64,000 nucleotides of DNA from Crocinitomicaceae bacterium (GTDB lineage Bacteria > Bacteroidota > Bacteroidia > Flavobacteriales_D > Crocinitomicaceae): the NCBI GenBank assembly GCA_017984635.1, contig JAGNZC010000012.1, positions 1 through 64,000 of the forward strand. Direction: 5' to 3'. Positions 34,815-40,518 of this stretch are shown here, piece by piece (the first letter of the stretch is position 1; the number at the start of each line of letters is the position of its first letter). Position numbers and translations under genes: made by a program. The notes under the pieces were generated by a model. It searched no databases. It was not told the DNA's origin and saw only the letters and a program-made list of their open reading frames with translations.

Positions 34815-37800
34815 ATGATAAAAAACGACGTATTTAAATTGTACATTGAAGCGCATTCGAATCAGTCGTTAAAAGTAAAAATGAAAGATTGCGAGGTCGA
34901 AAATTTAAATATCGGTAAATTAGGAATTGCTGCAAATGTCAAAGCCTTAAGTTATTATAAGGTAAACATCGTTATTTTTCAAGGAATCATTCATTCAACT
35001 GCGTGCACGTGTACTAATAATCCCGCAAAAGTCTGTGAGCATATTTTAGCGGTACTGCAAGCTGCACATACGTTTTTGTACAAAATGGAGATGCAATTAT
35101 TGCAAGATGATATTTTAGCTCAGGAAAAAAGAACGGGACATCCAACAACTTATTTGTTCCCTGCATTAAAATTCAAAGAGTTGAGTAATGACTTTATTTT
35201 TGGTCATTTAAAAGATACGCCCAGCTATAATTTAAGCGCTTATATTGAAGAATTAAGAATCAATGAAGCGATCATCGTTGTTTCAAAATCTTATTACGAG
35301 CGTGAAATGGTTCATGTAACGTTTGAAGCTGGTGATTTAATTCTTGAATGTCAATGTGAAGAATTGAAAACACATTTGTGTAAGCACCAAGAAAAGGCGA
35401 TGTATATGTTAAAGGATGATGCATTAGTACGTCCATTTTTTGACAAAGATGCCCGCCAAGTATATTTACAAAAACAAGCGGATGATTATGGATTGTCCTT
35501 CAAAGACAATTTAGAAGATTACTTTGAGCTTCAATATGAAAACAAAGAAATCAAAATTAAAAGTTTAATTTCTGGCTTGACACCAATAAATGAGTCAACG
35601 CTAGACCAACTAAAAAAACAATTAATACCATCCAAACAAACACCTTTTGAAATTTCAAATCAAGCTGGGCTTCCCAAAGAAAATTGCATTGTATTTGAAG
35701 AAGCACGTTATGCTAACGATTTTCACATTAGTTTATACAGTGCGTTTTTAACAAAAGAAGGAAGGATAAAAAATCCATTAAAATTAGAAGACGCGCGACA
35801 ATATATTTTTTCAAGTGACGATCATCAATCTTTAAAATTTTACAGTGCAATTGCTGTTTTTCAAAATTCACCAACTTTTATTCCAAATCGTAAAACAACT
35901 GACGAACAAATTGCTTTAAAAGAAATCGTTCGTAATTGTGAAGAATTAGCGGTGTATTGCTTAAACACACAACAATCTGATAAATGTACAGTTCAAGGGT
36001 TAGAACCTGTACAATTAAAAAAAGCAGTAATCGAATTTCAATTAAAAATTGTTCAAAAAGAGGATTTTTATGAATTAACACCTAAGTTATTCATTGACAG
36101 TGTTTCTATTAATTTTTCTGCTATCAAATTAGTCTATGCTACTTTTATTAGGGTTGCAAATGATTTGATCTATTGTCAGGATGAAGCTGTTTTAAAAGCG
36201 CTTCATTTTTTCAAAAAACAGCAAGCTAAAATATTGTTGCACAAAGATAAATTCCCTTCATTTCAAGCTACTTTATTGAATCAATTGGCTGATAAAATCA
36301 CAATAGATTACACCTTTTTGCAACCAGCAACTCCGAAACAATACGATGATTTTATCGGTGAAAAAACGCCTGTAAAAAGAATTTACTTGAGTGAGTCAGA
36401 TTCCTTTGTTTTAATTTCTCCAGTGATCGAATATGGCAATATCGAAGTACCTGTTCGTTCCAAAAGAAGAATTTATCAGTTAGATGCTTTGGGACAACCA
36501 TTTGAAATCAAACGCGATGAAGCATTGGAAATTCGTTTTTTACTTTCTATAGAAGATAAACACCCCAATTTTGAGGAACAAGAACAATTTGATTATTACT
36601 ATTTAAACAAAGCAATCTTCTTAGACGATCAATGGTTTTTAACAGTTTTCGAACAATGGCAGCAGGATGGTGTAGAAATTCTTGGATTCAATGCGTTGAA
36701 AAACAATGTCTATCATCCTTCGAAAATGTCTGTTTCATTAGCTGTTTCTAGTGGAATCGATTGGTTTGAAACTGCTGTAAAAGTTAGTTTTGGTGATGAA
36801 AACGTACGTTTGAAAGAAATCCAACGTTCGGTTGTTAACCAATCTAAATACGTGCGTTTAGGAGATGGACGTCTAGGAATTATGCCGCAAGAATGGTTAG
36901 ATAAATTTGCCACATTTTTTCGTTCCAGTGAAATTTATGATTACTTATTAAGAACATCAAAAATACATTTCTCCTACATCGATGAACTGTTCAAAGATGA
37001 AGTGTTACCCAACGATGTGTCTAAAGAAATCAATCGTTACAAAGAAAAGTTAGCATCTTTTCAAGCAATAGAAACAGTTAAAATTCCAAAAGGATTGAAA
37101 GCGACTTTACGGGATTATCAAAAAGAAGGATTGAACTGGTTGCATTTTCTCGATTCTTTTAATTTTGGTGGATGCTTAGCGGATGACATGGGTTTAGGTA
37201 AAACAATTCAAATTATTGCGTTTATTTTATCGTTAAAAGAAAAAAACGGAAAACGACCGCATTTAATTGTTCTGCCAACTTCCTTATTGTTTAACTGGAA
37301 AAGTGAATTAGAGAAATTCGCACCGTCCTTAAAATTCCATATGAATTATGGGAATGAACGCAAAAAAGATGCTGAATTCTTCAAAAAATTCGATATTATT
37401 TTCACGACTTATGGCACACTTTTGAGTGATGTAACAGCTTTAAAATTAGTTGATTTTGATTATGTGATTTTAGATGAATCTCAAGCAATAAAAAACCCAC
37501 TTTCGAAACGTTATAAATCAGTACGCTTGTTAAAGGCTAGAAATCGATTGGTGTTAACTGGAACTCCAATTGAGAATAACACCTATGATTTATATGCTCA
37601 ATTTTCGTTTTTAAATCCAGGAAGTTTGGGTTCTCAACAACGATTTAAAGATAATTACTCTATTCCAATTGATAAGTTCAAAGATGGATTAAGAGCTAAA
37701 GAATTACAACAAAAAATTCATCCTTTTTTATTAAGAAGAACAAAAAAACAAGTTGCGAATGAATTACCTGAAAAAACAGAAATAGTCTTGTTTTGCGAAA

Positions 37801-38486
37801 TGGGGAATGAGCAACGAACGGTTTATGAATCGTATAAAAATGAATTTAAGTTATACTTGGAGAAAAGCAAAAAGGAAGAATTATTGAATCAAAATATGCA
37901 TGTATTGCAAGGTTTGACAAAATTAAGACAAATCTGTAATTCACCTGCATTATTGAATGATGAAGGTTTTTATGGCAATGAGTCAGCAAAAATCGATGTA
38001 TTAATGGATCAAGTTTCTGAACAAGTTGCGAACCATAAAATTTTGATATTCTCCCAATTTGTTGGGATGTTAGATTTGATCAAAGAGCGATTCGTACAAC
38101 AAGGAATTACATTTGAATATTTAACGGGTAAAACTAAAAACAGAGAAGAGGTTGTTCGTAATTTTCAGGAAAATGATTCCATTCGCGTCTTTTTAATTAG
38201 CTTGAAAGCGGGTGGAGTAGGCTTGAATTTAACCGAGGCAGATTATGTGTATATCGTTGATCCGTGGTGGAATCCTGCAGTTGAAAATCAAGCAATTGAT
38301 CGCTGTTACCGCATTGGACAAAAAAGAAAAGTGATTGCAGTTCGATTAATTTGTCCGAACACAATTGAAGAGAAAATTATACAATTGCAAGCATCCAAAA
38401 AAGAGATGATTGATGATTTGATTAAGGTGGATTTGAATGCGTCCAAAAATCTAGCGAAAGACGATTTGTTGTTATTGTTGGAATGA
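34815..38486 (+). CDS. SNF2 family DNA helicase with SWIM-type zinc motifs
   Basis: The protein of 1223 residues has a SWIM-type zinc motif at Cys64-x-Cys66-x7-Cys74-x-His76, and a second CxC...CKH motif near residue 180 (ECQCEELKTHLCKH). A long divergent middle region follows. The Swi2/Snf2 ATPase core occupies the C-terminal 450 residues: DDMGLGKT at 790-797, LPTSLLFNWKSELEKF, DESQ at 887-890, LTGTPIENN, and the end signature NPAVENQAIDRCYRIGQKRKV. Such proteins are ATP-driven DNA translocases. In Bacteroidota they are common as large single genes and their cellular role is unclear. It lies between a terminator and a pair of inverted palindromes. Confidence 0.9.
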   Translation: MIKNDVFKLYIEAHSNQSLKVKMKDCEVENLNIGKLGIAANVKALSYYKVNIVIFQGIIHSTACTCTNNPAKVCEHILAVLQAAHTFLYKMEMQLLQDDILAQEKRTGHPTTYLFPALKFKELSNDFIFGHLKDTPSYNLSAYIEELRINEAIIVVSKSYYEREMVHVTFEAGDLILECQCEELKTHLCKHQEKAMYMLKDDALVRPFFDKDARQVYLQKQADDYGLSFKDNLEDYFELQYENKEIKIKSLISGLTPINESTLDQLKKQLIPSKQTPFEISNQAGLPKENCIVFEEARYANDFHISLYSAFLTKEGRIKNPLKLEDARQYIFSSDDHQSLKFYSAIAVFQNSPTFIPNRKTTDEQIALKEIVRNCEELAVYCLNTQQSDKCTVQGLEPVQLKKAVIEFQLKIVQKEDFYELTPKLFIDSVSINFSAIKLVYATFIRVANDLIYCQDEAVLKALHFFKKQQAKILLHKDKFPSFQATLLNQLADKITIDYTFLQPATPKQYDDFIGEKTPVKRIYLSESDSFVLISPVIEYGNIEVPVRSKRRIYQLDALGQPFEIKRDEALEIRFLLSIEDKHPNFEEQEQFDYYYLNKAIFLDDQWFLTVFEQWQQDGVEILGFNALKNNVYHPSKMSVSLAVSSGIDWFETAVKVSFGDENVRLKEIQRSVVNQSKYVRLGDGRLGIMPQEWLDKFATFFRSSEIYDYLLRTSKIHFSYIDELFKDEVLPNDVSKEINRYKEKLASFQAIETVKIPKGLKATLRDYQKEGLNWLHFLDSFNFGGCLADDMGLGKTIQIIAFILSLKEKNGKRPHLIVLPTSLLFNWKSELEKFAPSLKFHMNYGNERKKDAEFFKKFDIIFTTYGTLLSDVTALKLVDFDYVILDESQAIKNPLSKRYKSVRLLKARNRLVLTGTPIENNTYDLYAQFSFLNPGSLGSQQRFKDNYSIPIDKFKDGLRAKELQQKIHPFLLRRTKKQVANELPEKTEIVLFCEMGNEQRTVYESYKNEFKLYLEKSKKEELLNQNMHVLQGLTKLRQICNSPALLNDEGFYGNESAKIDVLMDQVSEQVANHKILIFSQFVGMLDLIKERFVQQGITFEYLTGKTKNREEVVRNFQENDSIRVFLISLKAGGVGLNLTEADYVYIVDPWWNPAVENQAIDRCYRIGQKRKVIAVRLICPNTIEEKIIQLQASKKEMIDDLIKVDLNASKNLAKDDLLLLLE

Positions 38487-38493
38487 TAAAATC

Positions 38494-38517
38494 TTTACAA
38501 TATTGCAATGTTGTAAA
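38494..38517. repeat. 24-bp palindrome, left copy of an inverted pair
   Basis: The sequence TTTACAATATTGCAATGTTG plus TAAA is an imperfect palindrome with arms TTTACAA and TTGTAAA around an ATTGCAAT centre. Its exact reverse complement occurs at 38600-38623. It begins eight bases after the SNF2 stop. Confidence 0.7.
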
Positions 38518-38599
38518 GATAGAATTATCTAATTGTTTAAAGTTTCTTATTTATCCGGAATTTTTTCTTTCTAATTTACATTAATAGTTTGAAATATTT

Positions 38600-38623
38600 T
38601 TTACAACATTGCAATATTGTAAA
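38600..38623. repeat. 24-bp palindrome, right copy of an inverted pair
   Basis: TTTACAACATTGCAATATTG plus TAAA is the exact reverse complement of the copy at 38494-38517. Both share the arms and the ATTGCAAT centre and differ only in which arm holds the C/T substitution. Confidence 0.7.
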
Positions 38624-38662
38624 GAATCCAGCAATACTGAGTTTCCCAAACGTTTTCCCATA

Positions 38663-38696
38663 AAAAAAACCAGCTTATTTCTAAGCTGGTTTTTTA
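38663..38696 (-). terminator. intrinsic terminator after rpsA
   Basis: AAAAACCAGCTTA and TAAGCTGGTTTTT form a 13-base stem around TTTC. The A and T runs on both sides would make it work in both directions, serving rpsA and possibly the convergent SNF2 gene. Confidence 0.82.
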
Positions 38697-38712: not shown

Positions 38713-40518
38713 TTAGTTTCCTTTTTCCATTTTTTCTTTCAATGCTGATAAAGCATCTAAATCACCTAACGTAGATTTCTCTGTGTTTTGGTTGATTGCT
38801 TTAACTGCTTGTGAAGTTGATGATCCACCACCAGCGTTTCCACCTTTTTTACCACCTGTTGCTTTCGCAGTAGTTGTTGGTTTATCTTCTCCCTCTTCGA
38901 ATAAACGTGTATGAGAAACAACGATTTTCTTAGATTCTTTATTGAATTCGATAACTTTGAAATCTAAAGTTTCTTCTACTTTAGCATTTGTTCCGTCTTC
39001 TTTACGTAAATGTTTTGCTGGGCAAATACCTTCTACTCCGTAAGGAAGTGCAACGATTCCTGATTTATCTTTATTTTCAATGATTGTTCCTTGGTGAATT
39101 GAACCTTCTCCGAAGATTGTTTCAAATACATCCCATGGATTTTCTTCTAATTGTTTGTGACCTAAAGAAATTCTTCTGTTTTCACGATCGATTTCTAATA
39201 CAACTACTTGCATTTCGTCACCTACTTTACAGAATTCAGATGGATGTTTGATTTTTTTCTGCCAAGAAAGGTCAGAAATATGGATTAATCCATCAACTCC
39301 TTCTTCTAATTCAACAAATACACCGAAGTTAGTGAAGTTACGAACTTTAGCGTTGTGTTTAGAAGCAACTGAATATTTACCTTCGATATCAGCCCATGGA
39401 TCTGGCATCAATTGTTTGATACCTAAAGACATTTTACGCTCTTCACGATCTAATGTTAAGATAACTGCCTCAACAGTGTCTCCAACATTCATGAAATCTT
39501 GAGCAGAACGTAAATGTTGCGACCAGCTCATTTCTGAAACGTGAATCAAACCTTCAACACCTGCAGCGATTTCAACGAAAGCACCGTAGTCAGCCATTAC
39601 AACAACTTTTCCAGAAACTTTATCACCAACATTTAATTCAGTGTTTAATGCATCCCATGGATGAGGTTGTAATTGTTTTAATCCTAAAGCAATACGTTTT
39701 TTATCGTCATCAAAGTCAAGAATAACAACATTTAATTTTTGATCTAATTCAACGATTTCTTCTGGGTGGTTAACACGTCCCCAAGATAAATCTGTAATGT
39801 GAATTAAACCATCAACACCACCTAAATCGATGAATACACCATAAGATGTGATGTTTTTAACTGTTCCTTCCAATACTTGTCCTTTTTCAAGACCAGAGAT
39901 AATTTGTTTTTTCTGTTCTTCCAATTCTGCTTCAATAAGCGCTTTGTGAGAAACAACAACGTTACGGAATTCTTGGTTGATTTTAACCACTTTGAACTCC
40001 ATGTTTTTACCAACGTAAACGTCGTAATCACGAATTGGTTTAACATCAATTTGAGAACCTGGTAAGAAAGCTTCAATTCCAAATACGTCAACAATCAAAC
40101 CACCTTTAGTACGACATTTCACGAATCCAGTGATAACTTCACCAGTACGTAATACATCATTCACACGCAACCATGCTTTGTGCATACGTGCTGTTCTGTG
40201 AGAAACGATTAATTGACCTGTTTTGTCTTCTTGGCATTCAACGAATACGTCAACAACATCTCCAGCTTTTAATTCTGGGTTGTAACGGAATTCTGATGCA
40301 GGAACAACTCCTTCAGATTTGTAACCAATGTTAATGATTACTTCTTTTTTTGTTACGATAACAACAGTTCCTTCAACAACTTCTTTTTCGTTGATTGATG
40401 TCAATGTTACTTCGTATTTGTCTGATAATTCAGAACGTTGGATTTTTGAGTATCCGTCTAGTGCTAACGCATCCCAGTCGAAATCTGCAGTCCCCTGCAT
40501 GCTTGTGTTTTTTGCCAT
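38713..40518 (-). CDS. rpsA: 30S ribosomal protein S1
   Basis: The 601-residue protein consists of successive S1/OB-fold RNA-binding domains. Visible units include EGTVVIVTKKEVIINIGYKSEGVVPASEF, GTVKNITSYGVFIDLGGVDGLIHITDLSW, GKVVVMADYGAFVEIAAGVEGLIHVSEMSW and AKVRNFTNFGVFVELEEGVDGLIHISDLSW. Each later one is followed by an LGxKQLxPxPW linker. S1 binds mRNA and brings it to the 30S subunit, which matters in Bacteroidota, where Shine-Dalgarno sites are weak. The length is close to the six-domain S1 of other bacteria, with a Gly/Lys-rich and Ser/Thr-rich tail. Its promoter shares an 18-base segment (one mismatch) with that of rpsF, and the predicted leader is about 90 bases. Confidence 0.96.
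   Translation of the reverse strand: MAKNTSMQGTADFDWDALALDGYSKIQRSELSDKYEVTLTSINEKEVVEGTVVIVTKKEVIINIGYKSEGVVPASEFRYNPELKAGDVVDVFVECQEDKTGQLIVSHRTARMHKAWLRVNDVLRTGEVITGFVKCRTKGGLIVDVFGIEAFLPGSQIDVKPIRDYDVYVGKNMEFKVVKINQEFRNVVVSHKALIEAELEEQKKQIISGLEKGQVLEGTVKNITSYGVFIDLGGVDGLIHITDLSWGRVNHPEEIVELDQKLNVVILDFDDDKKRIALGLKQLQPHPWDALNTELNVGDKVSGKVVVMADYGAFVEIAAGVEGLIHVSEMSWSQHLRSAQDFMNVGDTVEAVILTLDREERKMSLGIKQLMPDPWADIEGKYSVASKHNAKVRNFTNFGVFVELEEGVDGLIHISDLSWQKKIKHPSEFCKVGDEMQVVVLEIDRENRRISLGHKQLEENPWDVFETIFGEGSIHQGTIIENKDKSGIVALPYGVEGICPAKHLRKEDGTNAKVEETLDFKVIEFNKESKKIVVSHTRLFEEGEDKPTTTAKATGGKKGGNAGGGSSTSQAVKAINQNTEKSTLGDLDALSALKEKMEKGN

Follow-up and report, generated by a model that had tools for sequence, protein, structure and literature searches.

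Within the 64,000-nucleotide stretch of Crocinitomicaceae DNA that was analysed (the window), a gene for an SNF2-type helicase (34815..38486, + strand; PF00176, 1.4e-74) and rpsA, encoding ribosomal protein S1 (38713..40518, − strand; S1 domains, 7.6e-78), converge on a gap of 226 bp, as a sequence-only reading of the window had described. In this gap, the same reading had noticed two 24-base sites with a ATTGCAAT centre that are exact reverse complements of each other, and both were confirmed, at 38494-38517 and 38600-38623. Site A (38491..38518, + strand) consists of ATC followed by the 24-mer TTTACAATATTGCAATGTTGTAAA (38494-38517) and a G; it lies 7 bp past the helicase stop codon and has its TTC-core orientation on the + strand. 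Site B (38599..38626, − strand) reads TTTTACAACATTGCAATATTGTAAAGAA on the + strand, with TTTACAACATTGCAATATTGTAAA as its 24-mer at 38600-38623 and the TTC-core, TTCTTTACAATATTGCAATGTTGTAA, on the − strand at 38601-38626, and the two copies of the window thus point opposite ways. The motif matched twice in the window, compared with no match in 100 dinucleotide shuffles. An AAT triplet reported outside each site is indeed present (38490-38492 and 38625-38627) but probably represents chance, the conserved bases next to the core being a GA that follows it. By eye, a 'head' flank of site B (38624..38652, − strand) resembles flanks beside other copies, although its per-column conservation is weak. 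A hairpin, CCAGCTTA-TTTC-TAAGCTGG, is seen in the sequence between A and T runs at 38670..38689; it was missing from the output of a simple terminator scan, but is probably the bidirectional terminator of rpsA and distinct from the palindrome sites. Most other congeners have a different neighbour gene, and no such site, downstream of rpsA. In three of them (G005, L114; G024, L116; G007, L127), a different repeat, around GCCACAGATGCACAGATT, is found there.

The earlier reading had suggested a genome-wide search for the 24-mer. In the 2.65-Mb, 91-contig assembly of the source genome (G000), a 26-mer query with up to 3 mismatches identified 18 copies at 14 intergenic places, four of which are pairs, and the reversed control gave none. 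Among 60 genomes searched with up to 2 mismatches, the source genome included, the motif occurred in three members of one genus (18 copies in G000, 18 in G017 and 16 in G006) and in none of the 57 other relatives, and the reversed motif was absent from all 60. A further Crocinitomicaceae record, JAHENC01, contains the motif once as an exact copy, in a location homologous to a G006 place. At L093:3102 and 3177, G006 carries a tandem pair spaced by 75 bp; the corresponding single site of JAHENC01 (L099:3184) joins the first site's left flank to the second site's right flank, indicating collapse or duplication between the repeats. None of the 52 copies lies within a convincing long ORF; the sole overlaps concern ORFs of 72, 91 and 240 aa, the last by its upstream extension.

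By ORF calling, five of the 14 places in the source genome lie between convergent genes (rpsA/SNF2, L060, and the ABC-transporter, dihydropteroate-synthase and dehydrogenase places, L061, L065 and L069), two between divergent genes (L067 and an arsR-like gene) and seven in tandem or unclear settings. Judged from the ORFs, a gene start lies within about 100 bp at only about three of the 14 places, so that most sites lack the promoter location expected of ArsR/SmtB-family operators. Many copies are situated 7-40 bp past a stop codon, the orientation of the motif relative to the nearest gene is mixed, and inspection by eye revealed no clear pattern in the helical phasing of paired sites. Small stand-alone GIY-YIG ORFs of 75-89 aa (L086:176-445, L080:4316-4543 and L084:5451-5717) occur close to sites of the DNA polymerase III alpha place and of the L084 place. 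In addition, a variant site, TTTACAAATTTACAATTTTGTAAAGAA, lies at L150:4000-4030 (G000:C43:30619-30644), just upstream of a 113-aa ORF whose product looks PadR-like by inspection; the same variant is present in G017:C35 and G006:C48.

All 52 copies (18, 18 and 16) were aligned; of the four at L082, two are flanked by the same sequence and might reflect a duplication in the assembly, one of them adjoining an N run. Conservation starts at core position 2 and reaches two or three bases past the core, TTACAACATTGCAATATTGTAAAGAA (n=52), taking in the GA after the core (51 and 52 of 52). The sites had been described as palindromic, but neither is a perfect palindrome: positions 8 and 17 are unpaired in both window sites, and the asymmetry recurs in 52 of 52 copies (position 8, C in 51 and A in one; position 17, A in all). 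As these two positions never pair, no copy is a true palindrome and the motif is oriented. Its direction is carried by only two core positions, so that two transitions would suffice to turn a site, and no symmetric intermediate was seen among the 52 copies. The sole common inner variant is position 12, with G in 42 and A in 10 copies. One way to read the 24-mer is as a row of three half-sites of 8 bp each, TTTACAAT, ATTGCAAT and GTTGTAAA, of which the first two may form a 16-bp operator of ArsR type. As the middle half-site is its own mirror, the second and third could also make an operator, one base poorer, and this arrangement would explain a strict direction without a palindrome.

The divergent place with the arsR-like gene points to a candidate binding protein. 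Here, a gene for a 97-aa ArsR-type winged-helix protein (L070:4670-4963, − strand) is preceded by two sites in tandem, which start 38 and 96 bp before its ATG in G000 and G006, and 37 and 94 bp before it in G017. As a single sequence, the protein matched PagR (7.1e-9) and ArsR/SmtB (1.6e-7) in NCBIfam, both below the cut-off, and no Pfam family at 0.001. A profile of 12 homologues retrieved PagR (2zkz, 1.6e-9), NolR and CzrA from the PDB, and HTH_5 (arsR) matched 12 of 12 members at E≤1, the best at 3.1e-8, with the G000 protein's own HTH_5 score below the gathering cut-off. NolR and PagR are regulators that are not known as arsenic sensors, and their targets are promoters. They share the ArsR-type winged helix with the 97-aa protein and are among its nearest solved structures by profile, but their sequence relation to it is remote. 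The protein has one cysteine, compared with about six in canonical copies, and thus lacks the sensor cysteines of metal-sensing ArsR. In the topology of a protein tree, the G000/G017 gene clusters with the derived genes of five other genomes, G003, G005, G022, G024 and G009. In the last four of these, the derived gene lies beside an orthologue of a gene that is probably tyrS; in G000 this gene is about 3.4 kb away.

Among 47 homologues compared, 19 are canonical, ending in CC and with about six cysteines, and 28 are derived, with 0.7 cysteines on average; the genomes with derived genes also encode a canonical ArsR ending in CC. Within 200 bp upstream, ATCGTAATATT[GA]C[GA]AT occurs at 19 of 19 canonical arsR genes and at none of the 28 derived ones. 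In contrast, an 8-bp periodicity was the best lag upstream of 17 of 28 derived versus 4 of 19 canonical genes, and was matched by at most 5 of 200 shuffles for 16 of 28 versus 5 of 19. For the G000-clade promoters, the periodicity was not significant, lag 8 being reached by 21 and 11 of 200 shuffles.

The operator of ArArsR from Arsenicibacter rosenii has been DNase-footprinted as TTTTATCGTAATATTGCGATCACAATC (PMC11868830), and the canonical upstream sequence found here is that operator. The G005 core TTCTACGTAATATTGCGAAG has 13 consecutive bases in common with this footprinted sequence. Between the 24-mer and a canonical form, an uninterrupted run of 11 bases agrees, a result equalled by 13 of 20000 shuffles, whereas over the full length of the 24-mer the resemblance to the canonical operator is modest (12/17; 299 of 20000 shuffles as good), and the cores of G005 and G003 are intermediate between the two. 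Like the footprinted operator, the sites upstream of the 97-aa gene are a AATATTGC-centred inverted repeat before an arsR-family gene; unlike it, they belong to a set of 18 copies mostly away from promoters, and the encoded protein has one cysteine and not six. Read as half-sites, they would also differ from the canonical operator (ATCGTAATATTGCGAT) in a third half-site, and CG is replaced by AC/CA. The cores of G003 and G005 keep the CG, and the recognition helix reads SQTTVHNHL in these two versus SSKCVHDHL in the G000 clade, a correlation between helix and core.

Derived arsR homologues of other species carry different arrays of 8-bp units at the same upstream place. In four genomes, the 200 bp upstream of the derived arsR were used as a query in its own genome, and such sequences were dispersed as well: they occurred at five other places in G003, one of them before a canonical arsR, at seven in G005, at nine in G009, and at 14, plus two weaker ones, all round the single-contig chromosome of the more distant G114, where three further matches covering the promoter part of the query alone were left out. 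The cores are TTCTACGTAATATTGCGAAGTTGCAA in G005, TTCTTCGCAATATTGCGAAGTTGCAA and TTCCTTATAATATTGTAAAGTTGCAA in G003, TTCTTTACAATATTGCAATGTTGTAA in the G000 clade and GAGTGTTCGCAATATTGCGAACACTC in G114. G003 has two derived paralogues; its two cores define families of 8 and 5 copies, and each family has a member in the promoter of its own paralogue. One derived paralogue of this genome (G003:C101, L173) contains an in-frame TAA (77-aa reading), and the sites of its core family persist. G009 (L138-L140 and L189-L199) has long arrays of 8-bp units, ATTACAAC, ATTCCAAC and GTTGCAAA, with a common leader ending in CGGGAGTTTTAAGTAAG at most of the nine places and at the arsR-like promoter. Genus g11 (e.g. 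G104, G114 and G156), of which 11 members were searched, has two to seven ArsR-like homologues per genome, more than most other genera of the family.

Matches to a degenerate core pattern with up to 2 mismatches were found in 7 of 8 genus genomes with a close homologue and in 1 of 18 without (p=9e-5, kinship ignored). The pattern had been written from G000-clade, G003 and G005 sequences; with these five source genomes left out, the proportions were 2 of 3 and 1 of 18 (p=0.04, again ignoring kinship). G009 has the homologue with a single core match, at 3 mismatches, its arrays being different, and neither G022 nor G024 matches the pattern at its arsR promoter, though other places in these genomes match. 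In G007 (69% complete), four core matches were identified, and a search for the arsR-like gene did not find one. Most genes flanking dispersed copies in G003, G005 and G009 have no orthologue among the genes that flank the copies of the G000 clade, so that a fixed ancient regulon is not supported; the places differ between these distant congeners, indicating that copies turn over on that time scale.

We consider it probable that the palindromes are dispersed operators of a lineage-specific, cysteine-poor and self-regulating ArsR-family winged-helix paralogue. Each site of 24-27 bp would be an ArsR-type operator with a AATATTGC core and a third half-site, and its binder an ArsR-family protein that has lost nearly all cysteines of canonical ArsR. 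The 97-aa protein encoded near tyrS would probably repress its own promoter through the tandem pair; it should also bind at about 13 further places between genes, the rpsA/SNF2 gap among them, of which the majority are not close to a start codon. Binding, autoregulation and a role at non-promoter sites, including this gap, are what we infer from sequence comparison; a mostly non-promoter placement is unusual for ArsR operators. The earlier suggestion of a paired binding site for a dimeric protein is thereby supported as far as a binding site is concerned, but not as a local pair, since the site is one of 18 genome-wide. Rather than a local operator belonging to rpsA or SNF2, the pair in the window most likely represents two of about 18 dispersed sites. 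The literature listings searched showed no paper that connects ArsR paralogues with dispersed sites, or with arrays of 8-bp units, in Bacteroidota, and a satellite paper (PMC6749651) was not relevant to these sites.

A different protein might instead use the copies as chromosome-organisation or segregation sites, such as nucleoid-occlusion, matS- or parS-like elements, with those before the arsR-like gene being incidental. The motif is oriented, near-invariant, intergenic and mostly away from gene starts, and the distribution of the same type of site all round the G114 chromosome would also agree with such a function. Known sites of this kind, matS (MatP), SBS (SlmA) and NBS (Noc), are short palindromes that are scattered between genes and not bound to promoters. 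The sites here resemble them as short intergenic palindromes mostly off promoters, but those known sites serve other proteins, and G114 displays no obvious clustering and no obvious ori/ter bias. Moreover, the motif is present at the arsR-like promoter of each of the three species, the promoters of the homologues carry the dispersed motif of their genome in G003, G005, G009 and G114, and the motif itself is restricted to three congeners and one more record. We therefore regard this explanation as unlikely. A dif-type site acted on by Xer, single per chromosome, does not agree with the 18 copies.

Another rival is a non-autonomous mobile repeat, of the MITE or REP/BIME kind, that a transposase would have spread and that was perhaps recruited later. 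REP/BIME elements are intergenic imperfect palindromes, single or paired. The many near-identical sites here share this appearance, a weakly common flank lies beside many copies, positions differ among distant congeners, and tandem copies can collapse (L093 versus L099). However, unlike REP/BIME elements, the sites are conserved in position and operator-like. Twelve of the 14 places, as judged by neighbouring ORFs and flanks, are common to at least one sister species and eight to both; two G000 places are absent from the assemblies of both sisters, which are draft genomes. At orthologous sites, the 27-base core is identical at 1046 of 1080 bases, whereas the gapped 40-base flanks are 82% (left) and 81% (right) identical, compared with 77% and 75% for unrelated flanks. 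The core is thus near-identical while the flanks hardly exceed the unrelated control, indicating that the sites have been kept as adjacent DNA drifted. The orthologous pair in G017 (L077) and G006 (L085) is direct, 114 bp apart and not inverted; the 27-base core of site B is identical in both, and the counterparts of site A face the reversed way. A query of 161 bases over both sites yielded 36 matches, of which 35 fell on the motif and spanned no more than 24-61 bases, so that the 132-base unit proposed earlier is not a repeat. As the interior is not repeated, 12 of 14 places are common to sisters and the sister pairs are direct, the miniature inverted-repeat element proposed with it was likewise abandoned. 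It had further been argued that a single copy conserved in relatives would speak for a local regulatory site and against a mobile element: copies are many, but their positions are conserved, a combination that fits dispersed operators. Common places, a site kept between diverged flanks, an oriented motif and its resemblance to an ArsR operator together make a mobile repeat improbable. A phage att site or viral origin was rejected, as the viral_contigs set contained no exact match to the inner 22-mer.

Finally, it is highly improbable that the sites act at the RNA level, as transcribed hairpins that terminate transcription or affect mRNA stability at the 3′ ends of genes: the 24-mer can form a hairpin, as seen in the sequence, and many copies follow stop codons closely, but the motif is AT-rich and without the GC-rich stem and T tract of intrinsic terminators, the scan returned no terminator-like site, rpsA is adjoined by a separate terminator, no Rfam family reached the gathering score, orientation relative to genes is mixed, and six of the 15 G114 places are divergent (two convergent, seven tandem). 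In G000 the sites seemed to favour the 3′ ends of genes, but G114 does not show this preference, and the idea was not retained.

Under the preferred reading of dispersed operators of the 97-aa protein, its role at non-promoter sites would most likely be that of an architectural or roadblock (insulating) protein, or else the sites may titrate the repressor; classical promoter regulation there is less favoured. As a tentative and rather doubtful generalisation, duplicated ArsR repressors without sensor cysteines may have become self-regulating, genome-wide DNA-organising proteins in Crocinitomicaceae, each paralogue co-evolving with its own operators, which would consist of 8-bp half-sites in threes or longer arrays at 10 or more intergenic places round the chromosome, the set being rewritten when the recognition helix changes. 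The scattered palindromes and degenerate 8-bp arrays of these Bacteroidota hereby gain a candidate binder, and an anonymous intergenic repeat becomes a testable protein-DNA pair. There are several paralogues, such as the two in G003 and the multiple homologues of each g11 genome, and each seems to have operators of its own; they provide a natural series in which to follow how specificity changes in a regulator and, at the same time, in its many sites. If the protein does occupy non-promoter sites genome-wide, this would be an instance of a metal-sensor family taking on a new function in chromosome architecture, in insulation or in titrating the repressor.
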